The notes under the pieces were generated by a model. That model did not search any database, had not been told where the DNA came from, and was given only the letters and a program-made list of their open reading frames with translations. The translations under genes were made by a program, and so were the position numbers. Shown here piece by piece: positions 16,322-54,403 of a DNA stretch of 64,000 bases. Position 1 is the stretch's first letter; each line of letters begins with the position of its first letter. Source of the stretch: Gemmobacter megaterium (GTDB lineage Bacteria; Pseudomonadota; Alphaproteobacteria; Rhodobacterales; Rhodobacteraceae); NCBI RefSeq assembly GCF_900156815.1, contig NZ_FTOT01000001.1, positions 248,001 through 312,000 on the forward strand. The letters are read 5' to 3'.

Positions 16322-16354
16322 GCAAGACGGGCGGCCATGGGCCGCCCGTCTTGC
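16322..16354. terminator. Bidirectional terminator between the DUF4167 gene and rsmA
   Basis: A perfect 15-bp inverted repeat (arms 16322-16336 and 16340-16354) with a 3-base loop lies between two convergent genes. The right arm touches the rsmA stop codon. There is no T-run, but the stem is exceptionally stable. Confidence 0.65.
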
Positions 16355-17190
16355 TATGTCAGTTCCCGTGCCAGGGCGCAGAACCCTTCCAGGGGAATCT
16401 CTTCGGCCCGCCGGGTCGGCTCGATCCCGGCCGCCCGCAACTTTGCCTCTATGTCCGGCGCGACCCCTTTCAAGGCCGAGCGCAGCATCTTGCGCCGCTG
16501 GTTGAAGGCAGCGGCCACCACGCGCTCCAGCACCTTGCCATCGGCCGGATAGCGCGGCTGCGGCAGGGCCACCAGATGCACGACCGCTGAATGCACCTTC
16601 GGCGCGGGCACAAAGGCGTCGGGCGGCAGCGTCAGCACGATCTTCGCCTCGCAGCGCCATTGCGCCAGCAGGGCGAGTCGCCCATAGGCCGGACTTCCCG
16701 GCCTGGCGACGATGCGCTCGGCCACTTCCTTCTGGAACATCAGCGTCAGGCTTTGCCAGAACGGCGGCCAGACCGGAGGCGTCAGCCAGCGTATCAGCAG
16801 TTCGGTCCCGACATTGTAGGGAAGATTGGCGACCACCCTGACAGGGGCCTGCAACCGCGCGGCGGCATCCACGTCCAACGCATCGCCGTTCACCACCTCC
16901 AGCCGCCCCGGATAGGCTGCGGAAATCTCCTCCAGCGCGGGCAGGCAGCGGGCATCCTTTTCCACCGCAAGCACCCGTCGCGCCCCTTCGGCCAACAAGC
17001 CGCGGGTCAGTCCGCCCGGCCCCGGCCCGACCTCCAGCACATCGGATCCGGTCAGATCGCCTGCCGCCCGCGCGATCCGCGCCGTCAGGTTCAGATCCAG
17101 CAGAAAATTCTGCCCCAACTGCTTTTTCGCCACCAACCCATGCGCCGCGATCACGTCGCGCAGGGGGGGCAAACCGTCGATCGCCGCCAT
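16354..17190 (-). CDS. rsmA: 16S rRNA (adenine(1518)-N6/adenine(1519)-N6)-dimethyltransferase
   Basis: RsmA/KsgA dimethylates two adenines in helix 45 of 16S rRNA during late 30S assembly. The 278-residue product has [14 protein letters not shown], the SAM motif [16 protein letters not shown], and the catalytic [11 protein letters not shown]. The ATG at 17190 has AGGAG about nine bases upstream. It is the last gene of the lptF-to-rsmA unit, the same order known in other proteobacteria. A copy of the recurrent intergenic element lies directly upstream. Confidence 0.96.
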
Positions 17191-17208
17191 GCCGATCCGC
17201 TCCTGTTC

Positions 17209-17259
17209 TTCATCTTGCCTGAAATACCCCACGGGGGTCCGGGGGTGTGAAACCCCCGG
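17209..17259 (+). repeat. Recurrent intergenic element, copy 1
   Basis: TTCATCTTGC, three bases, then AAATACCCC (17209-17230) is followed by a GC-rich part containing an 8-bp stem (CCGGGGGT / ACCCCCGG, 17239-17259). The same composite occurs at 30121, 41189 (degenerate), 51821 (minus orientation) and 54337. Here it lies between pdxA and rsmA, in opposite orientation to both. The stem may also serve as the pdxA terminator. Confidence 0.7.
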
Positions 17260-17265
17260 TCACCG

Positions 17266-18246
17266 TTACCGTCGGCGCGCCGCTGCCATTCGGGCGGCCA
17301 TCCGCAAGGCTGCAATCACCGAGGCCGCCCGCGCCACACCCTTGCCTGCAATGTCGAAGGCCGTGCCATGATCCGGCGAGGTGCGGATGAAGGGCAGGCC
17401 CAGCGTCACGTTCACCCCGTCGTCAAAGGCGAGCGTCTTGATCGGGATCAGCGCCTGATCGTGATAGGCACAGACCGCAACATCATAGGCGTCGCGCGCA
17501 CGGGCATGGAACATGGTATCCGCAGGCAGCGGGCCAAAGACCGCCAGGCCTTCGGCGGCCAGCCGGCCGATCAGCGGGGCGATCCAGTCCAGTTCCTCAC
17601 GCCCCATGTTGCCGCCTTCGCCGGCATGGGGGTTCAGACCGGCAACCGCGATGCGCGGCGCCGCAATGCCGAAATCCCGCACCATGCCCGCATGTGTCAC
17701 CCGGATGACCCGGTCCAGCACCGCAGGGGTCAGCGCCGCAGGCACCTGCGACAGGGGAATATGGATCGTGGCAGGGACCACCCGCAGCAGGTCCGAGGCC
17801 AGGCACATCACCACATCGGCGCCACCGGCCAGATGGGCCAGAAATTCGGTATGGCCGGGAAAGCCGAATCCCGCACCATCCTGCAAGGCCTTCTTGTGGA
17901 TCGGCAGCGTGCAGACGGCGGCCGCCTGGCCACGCTGGACCAGCCGCACCGCCTGTTCGATGGCCGCGACCACACCGGGCGCATTCGCCGGATCGGGGCA
18001 GCCCGGCACAGCCTTTCCCGCAAATGACAGTGGTAGCACCGGCAGCCTGTTGCTGGGCACCGTCAGCGCGTCTTCGGGCCGGGCAATCTCGGCCATTCGG
18101 CTGCCTGGTGGCAGATGGGCGGGATCTCCGATCCAGAAGAACGGCACAGCCGCCCCGAGTGCCGCCCGCGCCTTGACTGCCAGTTCGGCACCGATCCCGG
18201 CGGGTTCACCGCAGCTGACGGCGATGGGCAACCGATCGGGCAGCAC
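17266..18246 (-). CDS. pdxA: 4-hydroxythreonine-4-phosphate dehydrogenase
   Basis: PdxA oxidises 4-phosphohydroxy-L-threonine in the DXP-dependent route to pyridoxal phosphate. The 326-residue product shows the family signatures: CGEPAGIGAELA at the N-terminus, PGHTEFLA, the metal-binding histidines including GLNPHAGEGG, and AYHDQALIPIKTLAFDDGVNVTLGLPFIRTSPDHGTA split across the C-terminal third. The start is GTG at 18246, four bases after the surA stop. Its place between surA and rsmA matches the enterobacterial order. Confidence 0.95.
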   Translation of the reverse strand: MLPDRLPIAVSCGEPAGIGAELAVKARAALGAAVPFFWIGDPAHLPPGSRMAEIARPEDALTVPSNRLPVLPLSFAGKAVPGCPDPANAPGVVAAIEQAVRLVQRGQAAAVCTLPIHKKALQDGAGFGFPGHTEFLAHLAGGADVVMCLASDLLRVVPATIHIPLSQVPAALTPAVLDRVIRVTHAGMVRDFGIAAPRIAVAGLNPHAGEGGNMGREELDWIAPLIGRLAAEGLAVFGPLPADTMFHARARDAYDVAVCAYHDQALIPIKTLAFDDGVNVTLGLPFIRTSPDHGTAFDIAGKGVARAASVIAALRMAARMAAARRR

Positions 18247-28151: not shown

Positions 28152-30083
28152 TTAGTGGCGTTTCTTGACCCAGACTTGCCCGTCGATGAGGCTTTGAAGA
28201 TACCCCGACATGGCCGCCCGGTCCTCACCAAGATCGCTCGAGTCCTCATTTTGCGCCCGTCCGGCGCGGTTCACGGCCTCTGCCGCCTGTCCCAGACGCC
28301 ATGTCAGCCCTTCGTCGCTTGGAGTGCTGCCTTCGCCAACTTCCTCGACACCTTCGGCTATTTCCCGACGGGCGGTGCGGCGGGCCTCCAGCTTGGCGAA
28401 TTCCTCGGCCAGACACAGCCTGGCCATGACGGCATCCTCGGGGTTGCGAACGGCAGGGACGATCTGCACATGGGGTAGCGCACGCAGGGTTTCAAGTTCT
28501 GGCCCCGCCATGGCCGACAAGGTGCCGCGCGGATCTGCCGCCTGTGCCGCGCGCAGCAGCGCGGTGCGCAACTGGCCATGGGCCGGATCGGTGCACTCCA
28601 TGCGTTCCAGTGCGGTGTCGAACGTCTCGACCAGGTCGGGATGCAATGCGAGCACCGACAAGACCACCGCCTCGCGCAACCGTTCCTCCACCGCTTCGCC
28701 CGACCCGGCCAGCATCGAGGCGCGGGTCGAGGGCATGGGCGCCGCCTTGACCTTTTGCTGCCAGTGCCGGGGAACAAAGCCACGCGGTGCCCGCACGCCG
28801 GTGCCGAACAGGTCCTCGCGCAGCCGTTTCATCTCGGTGCCGTAATGCGCCCGGATCGACGGATCGGCGATGCGCGCCAGGGCCGCGCGCAACCGCTTGT
28901 CCAGCGCGGCGCGGCGTTCGGGGCTGTCGAACACCTGACCTTCGGTCTCGCGCTGCCACAGCAGCCGCACCATGGGCTGCGCGCCCTCCAATACCCGCTG
29001 GAACGCGCCCGCACCCTCGGCCTTGATCAGATCGTCGGGATCCATGCCGCCCGGCATCACGGCAAAGCGCAGGCCCTTGCCCGCCTCCAGCATGGGCAAC
29101 GCCAGGTCGATCACCCGCAAGGCCGCGCGCAGCCCCGCCGCATCGCCGTCCAGCGCGATGACCGGCTCGTCATGGATGCGCCACATCAGACGCAACTGGT
29201 CTTCGGTCACGGCGGTGCCCAAGGGCGCCACCGCACCCCGGAACCCTGCCTCGGACAGGGCGATCACATCCATGTAGCCTTCGGCCACCACCAGCGGCAG
29301 ACCCTTGCCCGCCGCCTCGCGCGCCGGGCCGATGTTGAACAGGTTGCGGCCCTTGTCGAACAGCGCGGTTTCAGGGCCGTTGAGGTATTTCGCCCGCGCA
29401 TTCGGGTCCAGCGACCGGCCGCCAAGGCTGATCGCGCGCCCGCGCCCGTCGCGGATGGGAAAGATCACCCGTCCGCGAAAACGGTCATAGGGCGCGCCGC
29501 CGTCATCAGGCTTGATGGCCAGCCCGGCCTCGACCACCAGCTCCGGCGCAATGCCCTTGGCCCCCAACGCCTGCAACAGCCCGGTGCGGCTGTCCGGCGC
29601 CCAGCCGATATGCCAGCGGTCCTGCGCGGCCTCCGGCAGGCGCCGCCGCACCAGATAATCCCGCGCAACCGCGCCCGACCCCGACCGCAACATCAGGCGA
29701 TAATGCTGGACTGCGGCCTCCATCACCTCGGCCAGCTTGCTGCGCCTGTCGGCCACCTCGGCAGCCCTGGGGTCGCGCGCCGGCATGGGCATCCCGGCCT
29801 CGCGCGCCAGAATCTCCACCGCCTCCATGAAACCGACGTTCTCGGTCTCCTTCACAAAGGAAATCGCGTCCCCCTTGGCGTGGCAGCCAAAGCAATAGTA
29901 AAATCCCTTGCGGTCATCCACATGAAAAGACGCGCTTTTCTCCTGATGGAACGGGCAGGGCGCCCACATGTCACCCTTGGCCTGATTGGACTTGCGCATA
30001 TCCCATGTGACCTTGCGCCCGACCACCTGGGTCAGGGAAAGCCGGTTGCGCAGTTCGTCAAGGAATCCGGGAGGCAGGCTCAT
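28152..30083 (-). CDS. dnaG: DNA primase
   Basis: DnaG makes RNA primers for replication. The 643-residue product has an N-terminal CHC2 zinc finger (CPFHQEKSASFHV with FYYCFGCHAKGD, residues 43-74), the RNA-polymerase core with RGRVIFPI, and the TOPRIM acidic residues in VVAEGYMDVIAL and IALDGDAAGLRA. A helical C-terminal region for helicase contact follows. Length is normal. It precedes rpoD by 95 bases. Confidence 0.96.
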   Translation of the reverse strand: MSLPPGFLDELRNRLSLTQVVGRKVTWDMRKSNQAKGDMWAPCPFHQEKSASFHVDDRKGFYYCFGCHAKGDAISFVKETENVGFMEAVEILAREAGMPMPARDPRAAEVADRRSKLAEVMEAAVQHYRLMLRSGSGAVARDYLVRRRLPEAAQDRWHIGWAPDSRTGLLQALGAKGIAPELVVEAGLAIKPDDGGAPYDRFRGRVIFPIRDGRGRAISLGGRSLDPNARAKYLNGPETALFDKGRNLFNIGPAREAAGKGLPLVVAEGYMDVIALSEAGFRGAVAPLGTAVTEDQLRLMWRIHDEPVIALDGDAAGLRAALRVIDLALPMLEAGKGLRFAVMPGGMDPDDLIKAEGAGAFQRVLEGAQPMVRLLWQRETEGQVFDSPERRAALDKRLRAALARIADPSIRAHYGTEMKRLREDLFGTGVRAPRGFVPRHWQQKVKAAPMPSTRASMLAGSGEAVEERLREAVVLSVLALHPDLVETFDTALERMECTDPAHGQLRTALLRAAQAADPRGTLSAMAGPELETLRALPHVQIVPAVRNPEDAVMARLCLAEEFAKLEARRTARREIAEGVEEVGEGSTPSDEGLTWRLGQAAEAVNRAGRAQNEDSSDLGEDRAAMSGYLQSLIDGQVWVKKRH

Positions 30084-30120: not shown

Positions 30121-30142
30121 TTTCATCTTGCCTCAAATACCC
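30121..30142 (+). repeat. Recurrent intergenic element, copy 2 (core only)
   Basis: TTTCATCTTGC, two bases, then CAAATACCC lies between the dnaG start and the lldD-like stop, opposite in orientation to both genes. The following GC-rich part (30180-30225) has short C-run/G-run stems but is less regular than in the other copies. Confidence 0.6.
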
Positions 30143-30225
30143 ATGAACGGCGCCGCTTGCGACATCATCGGGCTGGCGCGTCCCCCCATGGGGCCCCCAT
30201 CCTGCGGCCTGCCCCCTGGGGGCGG

Positions 30226-31389
30226 TCAGGAATAGCGGGTAAAGAACCCCTCGGGGATCAACAGGTTGTGCCGCCCGAGGTTGTGCGCATCGCGTTCGCC
30301 ACACAGGGCCATGGACACATCCAACTCCTTGCGGATCACCTCCAGCGCCGCCGTGACCCCGGCCTCGCCCATCGCACCAAGGCCATGGAGGAACGCCCGC
30401 CCGATGTAGGTAGAGCGCGCCCCCAGCGCCAGCGCCTTCAGCACGTCCTGGCCCGAGCGGATCCCGCTGTCGAGGTGGATCTCCACCCGGTCGCCCACCG
30501 CATCGACGATCTGCGGCAACATGCGGATCGAGGACAGCGCCCCGTCCAGTTGCCGCCCGCCATGGTTCGACACCACTATGGCATCGGCCCCGACCTCGGC
30601 CGCCTTGCGGGCATCGTCAGCATCCAGGATGCCTTTCAGGATCAGCTTGCCGCCCCACATCTCCTTCAGCTTGGCGATCTTGCCCCAGTCCAGTTGCGGG
30701 TCGAACTGCTCTGCCGTCCAGCTCGACAGCGAACTGGCATCGGCCACCCCCTTGGCATGACCGACGATATTGCCGAAGAACCGCCGTTTCGTCCCCAGCA
30801 TTCCCAGGCCCCAGCGCCAGCGCGTCGCCAGATCGGCAATCGTCGCGGGCGTCAGCTTTGGCGGCGCCGACAGCCCGTTCTTCAGATCCTTGTGCCGTTG
30901 GCCAAGGATTTGCAGATCCAGCGTCAGCACCAGTGCCGAACAGTTCGCGGCCTTGGCGCGCTCGATCAGCCGACGCACGAAATCCTCGTCGCGCATGACG
31001 TAGAGCTGGAACCAGAACGGCGCGGGGCTGTGGGCCGCCACATCCTCGATGGAACAGATCGACATGGTGGACAGGGTAAAGGGCACGCCGAACCGTGCCG
31101 CTGCGCGGGCGGCCAGGATCTCGCCATCGGCGTGCTGCATCCCGGTCAGGCCCACGGGGGCCAGCGCCACCGGCATGGCAATGTCTTGCCCGATCATCGT
31201 GGTGCGGGTCGAGCGGTTCGTCATGTCTACCGCCACCTTCTGGCGCAGACGGATCTGGGCGAAATCGGTGGTATTCTCGCGGAAGGTCTGTTCGGTCCAG
31301 CTGCCCGATTCCGCATAATCGTAGAACATCTTCGGTGTGCGCGCCTTGTGCAGGCGCTTGAGGTCGTCGATGCAGGTGATGACGGGCAT
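30226..31389 (-). CDS. lldD: FMN-dependent alpha-hydroxy-acid dehydrogenase (L-lactate dehydrogenase-like)
   Basis: The enzyme oxidises an alpha-hydroxy acid, probably L-lactate, to the keto acid and passes electrons to the respiratory chain. The 387-residue product has the family TIM-barrel: FYDYAESGSWTEQTFREN near residue 22, PVALAPVGLTGMQHADGE, FQLYVMRDE, and the active-site block IVVSNHGGRQLDGA with the catalytic His. HLDSGIRSGQDVLKALALGA binds the FMN phosphate. I chose the ATG at 31389, with AGGAG upstream. The exact substrate could also be glycolate or mandelate. Confidence 0.86.
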   Translation of the reverse strand: MPVITCIDDLKRLHKARTPKMFYDYAESGSWTEQTFRENTTDFAQIRLRQKVAVDMTNRSTRTTMIGQDIAMPVALAPVGLTGMQHADGEILAARAAARFGVPFTLSTMSICSIEDVAAHSPAPFWFQLYVMRDEDFVRRLIERAKAANCSALVLTLDLQILGQRHKDLKNGLSAPPKLTPATIADLATRWRWGLGMLGTKRRFFGNIVGHAKGVADASSLSSWTAEQFDPQLDWGKIAKLKEMWGGKLILKGILDADDARKAAEVGADAIVVSNHGGRQLDGALSSIRMLPQIVDAVGDRVEIHLDSGIRSGQDVLKALALGARSTYIGRAFLHGLGAMGEAGVTAALEVIRKELDVSMALCGERDAHNLGRHNLLIPEGFFTRYS

Positions 31390-31445
31390 GGCTGGCTCCT
31401 GAACTGGTAATTTTCGCTTACCAATCTGACCATGTTCCCGCAATG

Positions 31446-41172: not shown

Positions 41173-41188
41173 CGCATCGCTCCTTCGC

Positions 41189-41257
41189 TTTGATCCAGGT
41201 ATCCCCACGGGGGCAGAGGCGGCCGCGGGGCCGCCTCGGGGGGGGCAGGCGCCCCCC
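41189..41257 (+). repeat. Recurrent intergenic element, degenerate copy 3
   Basis: The AT-rich core is decayed (TTTGATCCAGGTATCCCC), but the following CCCACGGGGG matches copy 1. Then come a perfect 9-bp stem (GAGGCGGCC / GGCCGCCTC, 41216-41237) and a GGGGGG/CCCCCC stem (41240-41257). It lies between psuK and the livM 3' end and may terminate the liv transcript. Confidence 0.5.
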
Positions 41258-50352: not shown

Positions 50353-51723
50353 CTACAGCGCCTGGCTGCGGCTCGCCCGGCGCTGCGCCGAAAGCTCTTC
50401 GGCCACCAGAAAGGCCAGTTCCAGCGACTGGCTTGCGTTCAGGCGCGGATCACAGGCGGTGTGATAGCGGCTGGACAGATCCTCGTCGGAAACCGCGTGC
50501 AGGCCGCCGGTGCATTCGGTGACGTCCTTGCCGGTCATTTCGAAATGCACACCGCCGGGAACCGTGCCTTCGGCCTTGTGAACGGCAAAGAACTCGCGCA
50601 CCTCGCGCAGCACGCTGTCGAAGGGGCGGGTCTTGTAGCCACTGGCCGCCTTGATCGTGTTGCCATGCATCGGATCGCAGGACCAGACCACGCTCGCCCC
50701 CTCTTCCTGCACCGCGCGGATCAGGCGGGGCAGGTGGTCCCCGGCCTTTCCGGCGCCGAAACGGGCGATCAGGGTCAGGCGCCCGGCCTCATTCTCGGGG
50801 TTCAGGGTCGCCATCAGGCGTTTCAGGTCATCGGTGGTCATCGAGGGCCCGCATTTCAGCCCGATCGGGTTCTGCACGCCGCGGCAGAAGTCCACATGCG
50901 CGCCATCGGGTTGGCGCGTGCGGTCGCCGATCCAGATCATGTGGCCGGACCCTGCCACCGGCAGGCCGGTGGTCGAATCGATCCGGCACAGGGCCTCTTC
51001 ATATTCCAGCAGCAGGGCCTCGTGGCTGGTGTAGAATTCCACGGTGGACAGTTGCGTGACGCTCGATCCATCGACCCCGGCGGCCGACATGAAATCCAGC
51101 GCATCCGAGATTCGGTTGGAAATCTCGCGGTAGCGTTCGGCCTTGTCATGTTCGGCAAAGCCCAGCGTCCAGGAATGCACGCGGTGGATATCGGCATAGC
51201 CGCCGGTCGAAAAGGCGCGCAACAGGTTCAGGCTGGCGGCGGCCTGGGTATAGGCCTGCAACATGCGTGCCGGGTCGGGCAACCGGGCATCCGGGGTGAA
51301 GTCGAAGCCGTTGATGATGTCGCCGCGATAGCTGGGCAGTTCGGTGCCCGCGATCACCTCGGTCGGCGCGCTGCGCGGCTTGGCGAATTGTCCGGCCATG
51401 CGGCCCACCTTGACCACCGGCACCTTGGCGCCAAAGGTCAGCACCACGGCCATCTGCAAGAGCACCTTGAACGTGTCGCGGATGTTGTCGGCGCTGAATT
51501 CGGCAAAACTTTCGGCGCAGTCGCCGCCTTGCAGCAGGAACGCCTTGCCCGAGGAGACGTCGGCAAGCTGTTTCTTGAGCCGCCGCGCCTCGCCCGCGAA
51601 GACAAGGGGGGGATATTTCGCCAGTTGCGCCTCGACCGCGCGGAGCGCAGCCTGATCGGGATAGTCCGGCATCTGGATGCGCGGCTTGGCGCGCCAGTCC
51701 GATTTGCTCCATCCCTTGGCCAT
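50353..51723 (-). CDS. 3-deoxy-7-phosphoheptulonate synthase, class II
   Basis: This DAHP synthase condenses phosphoenolpyruvate and erythrose-4-phosphate as the first step of the shikimate pathway. The 456-residue product is of the plant-like class II type: [28 protein letters not shown] (metal-binding Cys), [38 protein letters not shown] (in consecutive strands), and [14 protein letters not shown] at 51723 ([10 protein letters not shown]) is the family start. Its stop lies 7 bases from the convergent PAS gene stop. Confidence 0.95.
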
Positions 51724-51820
51724 GATATCCTCCGGTTCCTGCCCAGTCGGAACCGATATAGGGGCAGGCCCGGTGTGACGCCACCGCAAAATGCCCGTGC
51801 CGGCTGCGCGGTGGCAACCG

Positions 51821-51866
51821 CCGGGGCGCTGCCCCGGACCCCGGGGTATTTGCAGCAAGATGAAAA
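51821..51866 (-). repeat. Recurrent intergenic element, copy 4 (minus orientation)
   Basis: Read on the minus strand: TTTTCATCTTGC, three bases, AAATACCCC, then a GC-rich part with a 7-bp stem (CCGGGGC / GCCCCGG, 51821-51837). It lies downstream of anmK and upstream of the DAHP synthase gene. Confidence 0.7.
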
Positions 51867-51893: not shown

Positions 51894-52988
51894 TCAGGCG
51901 GGGGTGGTGATCTGCCCGCCGCCGACCGCCGCCGCGACGCCGGTGGTGCCGGGGCAGGAGGTGGGCAGCCCGCGGGCGACGCGGACGGCGAGATGGGCGA
52001 ATGCCTGGGCCTCGAGCATGTCGCCGTCGAACCCCGCCTCTTCGACGGGTGCGACCCGGCAGGGCAGGCGGGTGGACAGGGCCTGCATCAGGCTGCGGTT
52101 GTGGCGGCCGCCGCCTGTGGCCAGCACAAGGGACGGGACGGCCGGCAGATGCGGCAGGCCCGCGGTGACGGCGGCGGCGGCGGCGGCGGTCAGGGTCGCG
52201 GCGGCATCCGAGTCGGACAGCGGTTCGACCGCCTGGGCCAAGGCGGAAAAGGCGTCGCGGTCCAGCGATTTGGGCGCCATGCGGAAGAAATAGGGATGGC
52301 GCAGAAAATCTGCGACCACGGCCTCGTCCGGGGTGCCCAGGGCCGCAAGCGCGCCGTTCTGGTCATGTGGCAGGCCAAGGCGGCGCTGCATCAGATCGTT
52401 GATCGGGGCATTGGCGGGGCCGGTGTCAAAGGCAAAGAGCGCCCCGGCCAGTTGTGGCTCGGCCAGGGCCGGGTTGGCCCAGGTCAGATTTCCGACGCCG
52501 CCAAGGTTGAGGAAGACCACCGGATCGGCGCCAAGACGGCGGGCCAGGGCAAAATGATAGAACGGCGCCAGCGGCGCCCCTTGCCCGCCCAGCCGCACAT
52601 CGTCGGAGCGGAAGTCCCAGACCACCGGCAGGCCAAGCACTTCGGCCAGGATGGCGCCGTTGCCGGCCTGATGCGTGCCCCGCCCGCCCGGATCATGCGC
52701 AAGGGTCTGGCCGTGAAATCCCACCAGATCGACATTGTCGAAGCGGGACAGCAGTTCGGCATGGGCGTTCTCGACCACTTCGGCCGCGGCATCGGCGCGC
52801 GGGTCATCCGGCCATGTGCCAAGCGCCGCACGCAGCGTGGCCTGTTCGGCCGGGCTGTAAGGTCGGAAGGCCGACGGTCCGAACTCATGTATCCGTGTCC
52901 CGTCGGTCAACAGCATGGCGGCATCCACCCCGTCGAGCGAGGTGCCCGACATCGCGCCAAGTGCCCAGACCGGCCCTGCCTTCAACAT
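51894..52988 (-). CDS. anmK: Anhydro-N-acetylmuramic acid kinase
   Basis: AnmK opens and phosphorylates 1,6-anhydro-MurNAc recovered from cell-wall turnover. The 364-residue product has the phosphate loop [17 protein letters not shown] near the N-terminus, [11 protein letters not shown], the GxxGxxxAP-type region [34 protein letters not shown] and [17 protein letters not shown] at 52988 is chosen for the family start. It is divergent from tyrS with a 64-base gap. Confidence 0.95.
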
Positions 52989-53052
52989 GCGCTTCCCCTT
53001 GGCTCTGCGCGCAGCTATACCGGCGCGCACCCGAACTATGGATGATGATGCC

Positions 53053-54303
53053 ATGACCTACCATGCCAAATCCGATTTCCTTCGCGTGATGCTCGAGCGG
53101 GGCTATGTGGCCGATTGCACCGATTATCAGGCGCTGGACGAAGCCTTGGTCAAGGGGGTTGTGCCAGCCTATATCGGCTATGATGCCACGGCGGCGTCAT
53201 TGCATGTCGGGCATCTGCTGAACATCATGATGCTGCGCTGGTTGCAAAAGACCGGGCACAAGCCGATCACCCTGATGGGCGGCGGCACCACCAAGGTGGG
53301 CGATCCGTCGTTCCGGGCCGACGAACGCCCGCTTCTGACTCCCGAAAAGATCGACGAGAACATCGCGGGGATGCAAAAGGTCTTTGCGCGCTACCTGTCC
53401 TACGGGCCGGGGGGCGGCGATGCCATCATGCTCAACAATGCCGAATGGCTGGACGGGTTGAACTATCTGGAGTTTCTGCGCGACATCGGGCGGCACTTCA
53501 GCGTGAACCGGATGCTGTCTTTCGAGTCCGTCAAATCGCGGCTAGACCGGGAACAATCGCTGTCGTTCCTGGAGTTCAACTACATGATCCTCCAGGCCTA
53601 TGACTTCCTGGAGCTGAACCGCCGCTATGGCTGTCTGCTCCAGATGGGCGGGTCGGATCAATGGGGCAATATCGTCAACGGCATCGACCTGACGCGCCGG
53701 GTGATCGACGCGCAGATCTTTGGCCTGACCTCTCCGCTCCTGACCACTTCCGACGGGCGCAAGATGGGCAAGTCGGCAGGCGGTGCCGTCTGGCTGAACG
53801 GCGAGATGCTGAGCCCCTACGAGTTCTGGCAGTTCTGGCGCAATACCACCGATGCCGATGTGGGCCGGTTCCTCAAGCTTTATACCGAGCTTCCGGTCGA
53901 GGACTGCGACCGGCTGGGCGCGCTTGGCGGCGCAGAGATCAACGGTGCCAAGGTGATCCTCGCCAACGAGGTGACAACGCTGTTGCATGGCGCCGAGGCG
54001 GCGGCGGCGGCCGAAGCCACTGCGCGCGAGGTGTTCGAGAAAGGGGGCATCGGGGGCGAGCTGCCAACCGTTGCCCTGAGCGCCCAGGAAGCCGCCGATG
54101 GCATCAGCCTGTCACAGCTCTTCGTGCGCGCAGGGCTGGCGAAATCCGGCAAGGAGGCCAAACGTCTGATCGCCGAAGGCGGCGCGCGGGTGAATGACGC
54201 CGATGCGACCGACGCGGGCCGCATCATCCGCGCCGAGGATCTTGCCGAACCGCTGAAACTGACCGCAGGGCGCAAACGCCATGCTCTGGTGACGCTGGGC
54301 TGA
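53053..54303 (+). CDS. tyrS: Tyrosyl-tRNA synthetase
   Basis: TyrRS charges tRNA-Tyr. The 416-residue product has the class I motif HVGH (in [10 protein letters not shown], near residue 48), [15 protein letters not shown], and KMGKS in place of KMSKS, as in many bacterial TyrRS. A C-terminal S4 RNA-binding domain follows ([30 protein letters not shown] in separate helices). I chose ATG 53053 ([13 protein letters not shown]); ATG 53038 would add five residues, and neither has a strong ribosome-binding site. Confidence 0.95.
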
Positions 54304-54312
54304 AACCAAAGC

Positions 54313-54339
54313 GGGGCGCCCCAGATCCGGCGCCCCTTT
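54313..54339 (+). terminator. Terminator of tyrS
   Basis: A perfect 8-bp stem (GGGGCGCC / GGCGCCCC) with an 8-base loop is followed by TTTC, ten bases after the tyrS stop. Its T-run is also the first part of recurrent element copy 5. Confidence 0.72.
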
Positions 54340-54403
54340 CATCTTGCTCCAAATACCCCGGGGGGAGGGCTGCGTCATGCAGCCCAGGGGGGCAGCGCCC
54401 CCC
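54337..54403 (+). repeat. Recurrent intergenic element, copy 5 (most complete)
   Basis: TTTCATCTTGC, three bases, AAATACCCC (54337-54359) is followed by a 7-bp stem (GGGCTGC / GCAGCCC, 54367-54385) and a GGGGGG/CCCCCC stem (54387-54403). It lies between the tail-to-tail tyrS and Hint-domain genes. Confidence 0.75.

Follow-up and report, generated by a model that had tools for sequence, protein, structure and literature searches.

The results demonstrated that a sequence recurring in the 64,000-nucleotide stretch of Gemmobacter megaterium DNA analysed here (the window) is a genuine element found at gene ends in Rhodobacteraceae, that it falls into classes, and that an unexpected polar footprint in base composition goes with it. 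The element reads TT-NNN-CTT-NNNNN-AAATA-YY-C and is joined to modular stem-loops. In our view it is most likely an address for a directional DNA transaction; that it is no more than a stem-loop at gene ends, a motif of uptake type or a mobile repeat seems less likely. The best explanation, which we offer tentatively, is a class-specific site at gene ends that, together with its factor, would anchor directional strand exchange mainly on the tag side.

The window was searched with TTTCATCTTGC-NNN-AAATACCCC at up to three mismatches, which returned 4 matches, compared with 0 in 100 dinucleotide shuffles; Rfam at gathering threshold gave 0 matches in the window. An earlier note on this DNA had listed five copies of one element, of which four match the core (0 expected) and the fifth, at 41189, does not. 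The four cores are of class T6. The first (17208–17230, plus strand; CTTCATCTTGC CTG AAATACCCC) lies between pdxA (17266–18246, minus) and rsmA/ksgA, whose open frame (16354–17232, minus) matches its family only from residue 34, so that the core sits in a probable gap; its class A stem module, (ac)GGGGG-TCC-GGGGG-tgtgaaa-CCCCC-GG, occupies 17231–17259 (plus). The second core (30121–30143, plus; TTTCATCTTGC CTC AAATACCCA), between dnaG (28152–30083, minus) and an LldD-type lactate dehydrogenase gene (30226–31443, minus), has no G-run stem module, and its ortholog in G001, a genome of the same genus, has tag class T1. The third (51843–51865, minus; TTTCATCTTGC TGC AAATACCCC) is flanked by anmK (51894–53054, minus) and class II DAHP synthase (open frame 50353–51858, minus, with a family match from residue 50), and carries a class A stem module with n=4, GGGG-TCC-GGGG-cagcg-CCCC-GG, at 51821–51842 (minus); its G001 ortholog has tag class T3 and a different downstream sequence. 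The fourth (54337–54359, plus; TTTCATCTTGC TCC AAATACCCC) has tyrS (52915–54303, plus) on one side and a convergent gene on the other, and its stem module, GGGGGGAG-[GGCTGC gtcat GCAGCC]-CAGGGGGG-cagcg-CCCCCC, follows at 54360–54403 (plus). Directly 5' of the TTTC of this tag, a GC hairpin of 8 bp with an 8-nt loop (54313–54336, plus) forms a terminator-like structure 3' of tyrS, of a kind found in a minority of copies only. The fifth stretch had been described as decayed, which is correct, but it belongs to another class: from 41184 it reads TTCGCTTTGATCCAGGTATCCCC, a relic of TTCGCCTTGATCCAAATATCC, a class that is intact and common in G001. This decayed element (41184–41257, plus) combines the T2 relic TTCGCTTTGATCCAGGTATCC, which departs from the G001 T2 consensus at 3 positions, with a G-run and stem-like sequence behind it.

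A genome-wide search, as proposed in the earlier note, found 106 copies in the 4.17 Mb of the own genome (CATCTTGC-N3-AAATACCCC, at most 2 mismatches), and the reversed control gave 0. The view that the core is conserved while the stems differ held within this genome: 104 of the 106 counted copies were extracted, and among these, which were selected by similarity at up to 2 mismatches, 99 carried exactly CATCTTGC and 103 carried AAATA. Without selection by similarity, AAATA[CT][CT]C[CTA] occurred in the fetched own DNA 100 times behind the tag and 10 times without it. Matches to the T6 consensus in 464 kb were bimodal, with 14 exact, 6 with one mismatch and 0 with two, followed by 1, 1 and 9 at three, four and five mismatches. 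In 102 copies (one without AAATA and one at a stretch end were left out), the first spacer base was mostly C (84/102), the second and third were nearly free, and AAATA was followed by CCC and then by C (49), T (40), A (12) or G (1). In one copy (L065) the spacer is 4 bases long and not 3 (TCATCTTGCCTTCAAATACCCT), and that of the G001 copy at C1:381024 is seemingly shorter.

The downstream modules varied from copy to copy. They took the form Gn-TCC-Gn-loop-Cn-GG, Gn-TGAAT-[hairpin]-AGA-Gn-loop-Cn, GATTTTCAAGGGGG..CCCCCTTGAA or a short CGCCGGAGGC, and some copies had no module. The proposal that the stems are paired structures was supported when pairing was tested by script. The TGAAT class (class B) comprised 25 sequences from the own genome, G001 and a panel of further genomes (1 of 26, with no recognisable end stem, was left out); these held 20 distinct inner hairpins and were self-complementary over 4–8 pairs in 25/25 cases, compared with 14% of shuffles reaching 4 pairs. 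The first G-run and the end hairpin were measurable in 68 of 103 own copies, and the length of the first G-run equalled that of the hairpin G-run in 58 of these 68 (permutation mean 28, maximum 41; 5000 permutations), so that the C-run could pair with either G-run. Inverted pairs were also observed (L088, on own contig C24 at about 151967–152027; L068; L037; G001 C2), in which the tags face each other over ~20–30 bases and could form a hairpin together. At two loci of G005 (L106, L108), an identical inner string of ~30 bases lies between two opposed elements, and the flanking spacer triplets differ.

To describe the spread of the family, we searched for the skeleton TT-N3-CTT-N5-AAATA-YY-CC. 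At least one match was present in 46 of 90 Rhodobacteraceae genera and at least five in 28 of 90, with 2 matches in total in the reversed control; these counts are too low because CC was required after YY and copies ending in CT or CA were missed, and the pattern recovered 46 of the ~106 own copies. A narrower form of the skeleton was found in 1 of 144 genomes of the class, the own genome, 141 of the 144 being outside the family. The exact motif was present in 6 of 61 relatives and lacking in three of four genus mates, and 20 stretches inspected from those three showed AAATA-YY-CC and the same stems behind another tag. Strings of this kind, which the earlier note had called frequent in Rhodobacterales, were found in relatives; core constancy, however, holds within the own genome, and family-wide only AAATA-YY-C and the TT..CTT skeleton are constant. 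Among named tyrS loci (up to 21 kb each), 25 of 80 had at least one element, and element density ranged from ~1 copy per 8 kb in G001 to 1 per 40 kb in the own genome. The 17208 element matched, in whole or in part (mostly the stem half), 19 plasmid or chromid records from Paracoccus, Gemmobacter, Fuscovulum and Thalassococcus, 17 of which have no annotated feature under the match, and the general family pattern was present in nine viral contigs (L217–L225). The literature searched, which included the accessible part of PMC12306157 and placed most subscription journals outside its scope, contained no description of the element family.

The tag to the left of the spacer varied both between and within genomes. 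Tag and YY co-varied across the free spacer, perfectly in three genomes and in 28 of 32 copies in a fourth. All 51 copies in G001 followed the rule, T1 (11) and T2 (19) occurring with TC and T3 (15), T4 (2), T5 (2) and T6 (2) with CC. For the other three genomes, rows were counted by eye from skeleton matches: in G612 (19/19), CAT/CAC occurred with TC (9) and CTT/CTC with CT (10; Fisher P = 1e-5); in G597 (29/29), CTTGC occurred with TC (22) and CTTTT with CT (6) or CC (1; Fisher P = 6e-7); and in G566 (28/32), CTT/CAC/CTC occurred with CT in 10/10 copies and CAT/CAG with CC in 18/22, the others having CT (3) or TC (1; Fisher P = 2e-5).

Comparison with G001 showed that classes switch in place. 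At least five tag classes were present at 51 sites in 400 kb of G001, and the own genome had essentially one (T6). A stricter pattern gave 49 G001 elements, of which 30 mapped to own sequence, 7 at shared sites and 23 without an intact own copy; no mapping was obtained for 19 of the 49 G001 elements or for 10 of the 20 own ones, and presence in one genome only means no intact copy by the pattern used, which misses other spacer lengths. The tag class in G001 differed at 7/7 shared orthologous sites, whose flanks were alignable, and the stem module was clearly kept at 4 of these, different at 2 and cut off by a stretch end at 1. Some of the 23 G001-only sites retained a decayed T2 copy in the own genome. 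Across 464 kb of own sequence, the T2 consensus had one match with 1 mismatch, one with 3 (41184) and one T2-like match with 4, and shuffled T2 motifs gave 0.2 matches with four mismatches and 0 with three or fewer. In this comparison, exact-match counts for G001 are too high, because masked bases (N) were disregarded. At the level of sequence comparison, class switching, relics and tag-YY co-variation suggest that class-specific trans-acting factors may maintain the sites.

A mobile repeat of the REP/BIME or MITE kind, non-autonomous and spread as a whole unit, of which a genome would hold several families, would account for the many copies, their patchiness between species, the inverted pairs, the several G001 families and the low number in divergent gaps. 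The lack of an intact own copy at 23 of the 30 G001 sites that could be mapped, some of which hold relics, and the inner string common to the two G005 loci would also fit. Such dispersal would not be expected to change the class in place while the flanks are retained, nor to leave nearly free spacer bases within a conserved motif, and at the sites inspected by eye there was no sign of a clean insertion flanked by duplicated target. We consider it unlikely. The Y1 transposase family (PF01797) was detected in 11 of 61 genomes and in 0 of the 6 exact-motif carriers, most genomes being drafts. The RAYT/REP system was rejected on this absence, and the mobile miniature repeat suggested earlier is disfavoured in its RAYT/REP form. 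The element resembles REP/BIME repeats with RAYT in its many intergenic copies, rarity in divergent gaps, stem-loops and inverted pairs; it differs in that its conserved part is a non-palindromic bipartite core with variable stems, and not a conserved palindromic unit with a 5' tetranucleotide.

Elements were mostly located 3' of gene stops, in either orientation. The 103 copies assessed for location comprised 57 in co-directional gaps (26 sense, 31 antisense), 34 in convergent gaps and 6 in divergent gaps, with 5 predicted inside ORFs and 1 unassignable; genes were called with a home-made codon-usage script, and their starts are approximate. The earlier description of the copies as intergenic and in either orientation applies to most of them, but not to the five within ORFs. 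Background gaps of at least 80 bp in 464 kb numbered 117 co-directional, 30 convergent and 58 divergent, and divergent gaps were significantly depleted of elements (6/97; Fisher P = 4e-6, divergent versus rest). This depletion would be expected of an ordinary gene-end element, that is, a bidirectional terminator or a family of mRNA 3'-end stem-loops, whose motif would be a U-tract with flanks homogenised by gene conversion and near which the strand imbalance described below would have another cause. The stems are kept by compensatory change in 25/25 inner hairpins analysed, inspection by eye shows several species with the element 3' of tyrS at a place where other species have a plain GC hairpin, and a strong hairpin lies directly before TTTC in 11% of 102 copies compared with 2% in controls (F direction). 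However, the other 89% of copies have no strong upstream hairpin, a U-tract need neither be near-invariant nor co-vary across a free spacer, co-directional copies are 26 sense versus 31 antisense, and sense genes, antisense genes and the second genes over all show a similar imbalance; an ordinary gene-end element is in our view rather doubtful. A simple terminator with the tag as U-tract was rejected, a strong hairpin before TTTC being present in a minority only. Intrinsic bidirectional terminators share with the element the gene-end position, GC stem-loops and T-rich tag, but most elements lack the strong GC hairpin directly before the T-rich tract, and we know of no terminator counterpart to the motif conservation and class co-variation. 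The view of a recurrent composite element that is more than a simple terminator was borne out, whereas a transcript-end signal alone leaves unexplained a strand imbalance that follows the orientation of the element and not that of the gene. A sigma-54-like or other R-direction promoter, an IHF site, an IS91-type target and a restriction site seem unlikely, as the other tag classes break the resemblance.

To characterise the imbalance, we measured base composition on the F strand. G-C skew was negative around copies (mean -0.040, 103 loci, P = 1e-11), on the tag side in 89/102 and on the stem side in 70/103 (sign-flip P = 5e-5 each). Third codon positions near elements were C-rich and G-poor on the motif strand whichever way the gene ran, most strongly on the tag side. 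Relative to a baseline of 57 window genes, tag-side third positions gave -0.143 in parallel genes (n=59, P = 3e-14) and -0.182 in antiparallel genes (n=41, P = 1e-8), and stem-side genes gave -0.03 (parallel, n=66) and -0.055 (antiparallel, n=34). The tag-side imbalance decayed smoothly (amplitude 0.24, tau 1.23 ± 0.44 kb), and about -0.06 to -0.07 was left at 2.0–2.4 kb, the end of the fetched flanks in the own genome. The second genes over showed similar imbalance at equal distance (44 elements, mean -0.105, P = 1e-4), indicating that distance counts and not gene identity. At 4-fold sites C rose (0.46 to 0.54, parallel genes), G fell, and A and T hardly changed; at 2-fold sites C gained on T and A on G, with hardly any gain at parallel purine sites. 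The sense baseline at third positions was ~0, so transcription in general does not create the imbalance, and the likeness of sense and antisense genes also does not fit well with transcription.

The footprint extended to other genomes. In a panel of 38 elements from 24 genomes, 33 usable tag sides gave -0.127 (P = 6e-4) and 36 stem sides gave -0.05 (P = 0.10). In G001 (47 elements), the tag side gave -0.062 (P = 0.001) and the stem side -0.084 (P = 5e-5), so that the imbalance was equal on both sides, unlike in the own genome; parallel genes on the G001 stem side were still at -0.02 to -0.06 out to 8 kb, and the tag side was near zero beyond ~2 kb. Control sites of uptake type (181 sites with the Pasteurellaceae motif, 280 kb, two genomes) gave pooled bins within 0.022 of zero; by strand, they were at about -0.13 and +0.12 at all distances, without local change.

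Ordinary strand-asymmetric mutation or deamination alone may explain the imbalance, as the transition asymmetry at 2-fold sites would allow, but deamination alone accords poorly with 4-fold sites at which C is up and G down, with A and T nearly constant. Hypermutation near elements was rejected because third-position identity between the own genome and G001 showed no trend there. A replication-oriented or replichore site is not supported: the residual imbalance at 2.0–2.4 kb in the own genome and the orientation count on contig C24 (20 plus versus 5 minus among sampled copies) would suit it, but the peak lies at the element, and on the G001 tag side hardly any imbalance is left beyond ~2 kb. 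The same peak argues against the suggested chromosome-organising role, if tied to replication direction, which the C24 count and the residual imbalance leave with a small probability; an extra bias to replication direction is possible on that contig. Sampled copies numbered 25 on C24 (843 kb) and 41 on C27 (931 kb), and only 2 and 3–4 on C16 (300 kb) and C18 (436 kb), which may be extrachromosomal replicons.

We further compared sites with and without an element. Shared sites were equally imbalanced in the two species (-0.162 and -0.166). The 23 G001 sites with an element gave -0.056 (tag) and -0.074 (stem), and their own orthologues -0.017 and -0.033 (P = 0.07 and 0.05). The paired test on one-genome sites, with sides pooled and both genomes included, gave -0.037 (26 sites, P = 0.056), and far controls gave 0.0005 (205 usable of 400). 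Two sites in one misclassified gap were dropped because the G001 gap there has a shorter-spacer element that the pattern missed, which left 24 sites at -0.031 (P = 0.16); with an inverted pair also removed, 22 sites gave P = 0.13, and the 23 G001-only sites alone gave -0.026 (P = 0.26). Own-genome relics dilute this orthologue test. The tyrS panel of 80 loci (F 9, none 65, R 5, both 1) went in the expected direction and was not significant. Elements might be retained only in the orientation that fits a strand imbalance already there before them, without being its cause; the equal values at shared sites, the slightly negative own sites without an intact copy and the lack of significance after correction are compatible with such a preference. 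The smooth third-position decay passes gene borders, however, and the average lean at one-genome sites exceeds that of their orthologues, which is not so for far controls; we give an orientation preference little credence.

A DNA uptake sequence, or a packaging sequence of gene transfer agents, with dialects spread by biased DNA transfer was also weighed. The conserved, over-represented bipartite motif, the dialects of relatives, the in-place turnover and the inverted gene-end pairs seen here resemble the DUS/USS systems of Neisseriaceae and Pasteurellaceae (PMC3630211, PMC1852404). The element differs from them in being mostly intergenic, in its stem-loop module, in having several co-existing classes per genome and in a polar strand imbalance that is lacking at the 181 uptake-type control motifs. 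Uptake sequences are very frequent and also lie inside genes, whereas 106 copies were found in 4.17 Mb, 5/103 of them predicted inside ORFs, and even G001 reaches only ~1 copy per 8 kb; an uptake or packaging role for the motif appears improbable.

Chi, the site of RecBCD and AddAB, is an asymmetric sequence of 5–8 bp, one per species and not confined to gene ends, whose effect lies on its 5' side and decays over kilobases. By analogy, the strand imbalance of the element on its 5' side, the tag side, which is an indirect sign, may be likened to this, but Chi is far more frequent. Each known kind that could be tested differed from the element in a feature.

Returning to the class-specific site with directional strand exchange, we propose that the element would be a bipartite DNA recognition site, in which a nearly free spacer separates the tag from AAATA-YY-C, with a stem-loop module attached. 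Its place at the 3' ends of genes would be the least harmful one, and its stems might double as transcript ends. Each tag class would have its own trans-acting factor that recognises the sequence and keeps the sites intact, and loss of a factor would let its class decay. The factor search covered PF01797, and no factor, enzyme or recombination event was identified in this analysis. The site would anchor a DNA transaction that is directional and specific to one strand. Strand exchange is its likeliest form, and the F strand (TTCATCTTGC..AAATACCC), with its end close to the element, would then act as donor for ~1–1.5 kb, mainly on the tag side. Keto-keto mismatches (G.G, G.T, T.T) are generally repaired better than amino-amino mismatches (C.C, A.C, A.A). 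A keto donor base over an amino resident base would then form a keto-keto mismatch and be rejected, the reverse would form a tolerated amino-amino mismatch, and with repeated exchange the donor strand would become enriched in C and A. An excess of C relative to G and T, and of A relative to G, is what this step predicts and what was observed; the equal two-sided imbalance in G001 is not accounted for by the model. The element would on this reading cause the imbalance, and the sites may be linked to transformation or gene transfer agents.

More broadly, and with somewhat greater doubt, these data may point to an undescribed Rhodobacteraceae system in which paralogous factors, each with its own site dialect, would start directional single-strand exchange, classes would be gained, switched and lost, and a one-sided imbalance would result. 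Whatever the mechanism, the footprint at third positions is easily computed and can be tested for in any genome of the Rhodobacteraceae, and knowing which tag classes are intact and which decayed permits a search for the factors by gene presence and absence. If the proposal is true, the polarity of recombination would be readable from a single genome through one-sided base imbalance, and a large free-living bacterial family would possess polar DNA exchange directed to sites whose addresses are specific to species and class. This would matter for recombination and for the maintenance of genetic separation in the Rhodobacteraceae, where gene transfer agents have their home.
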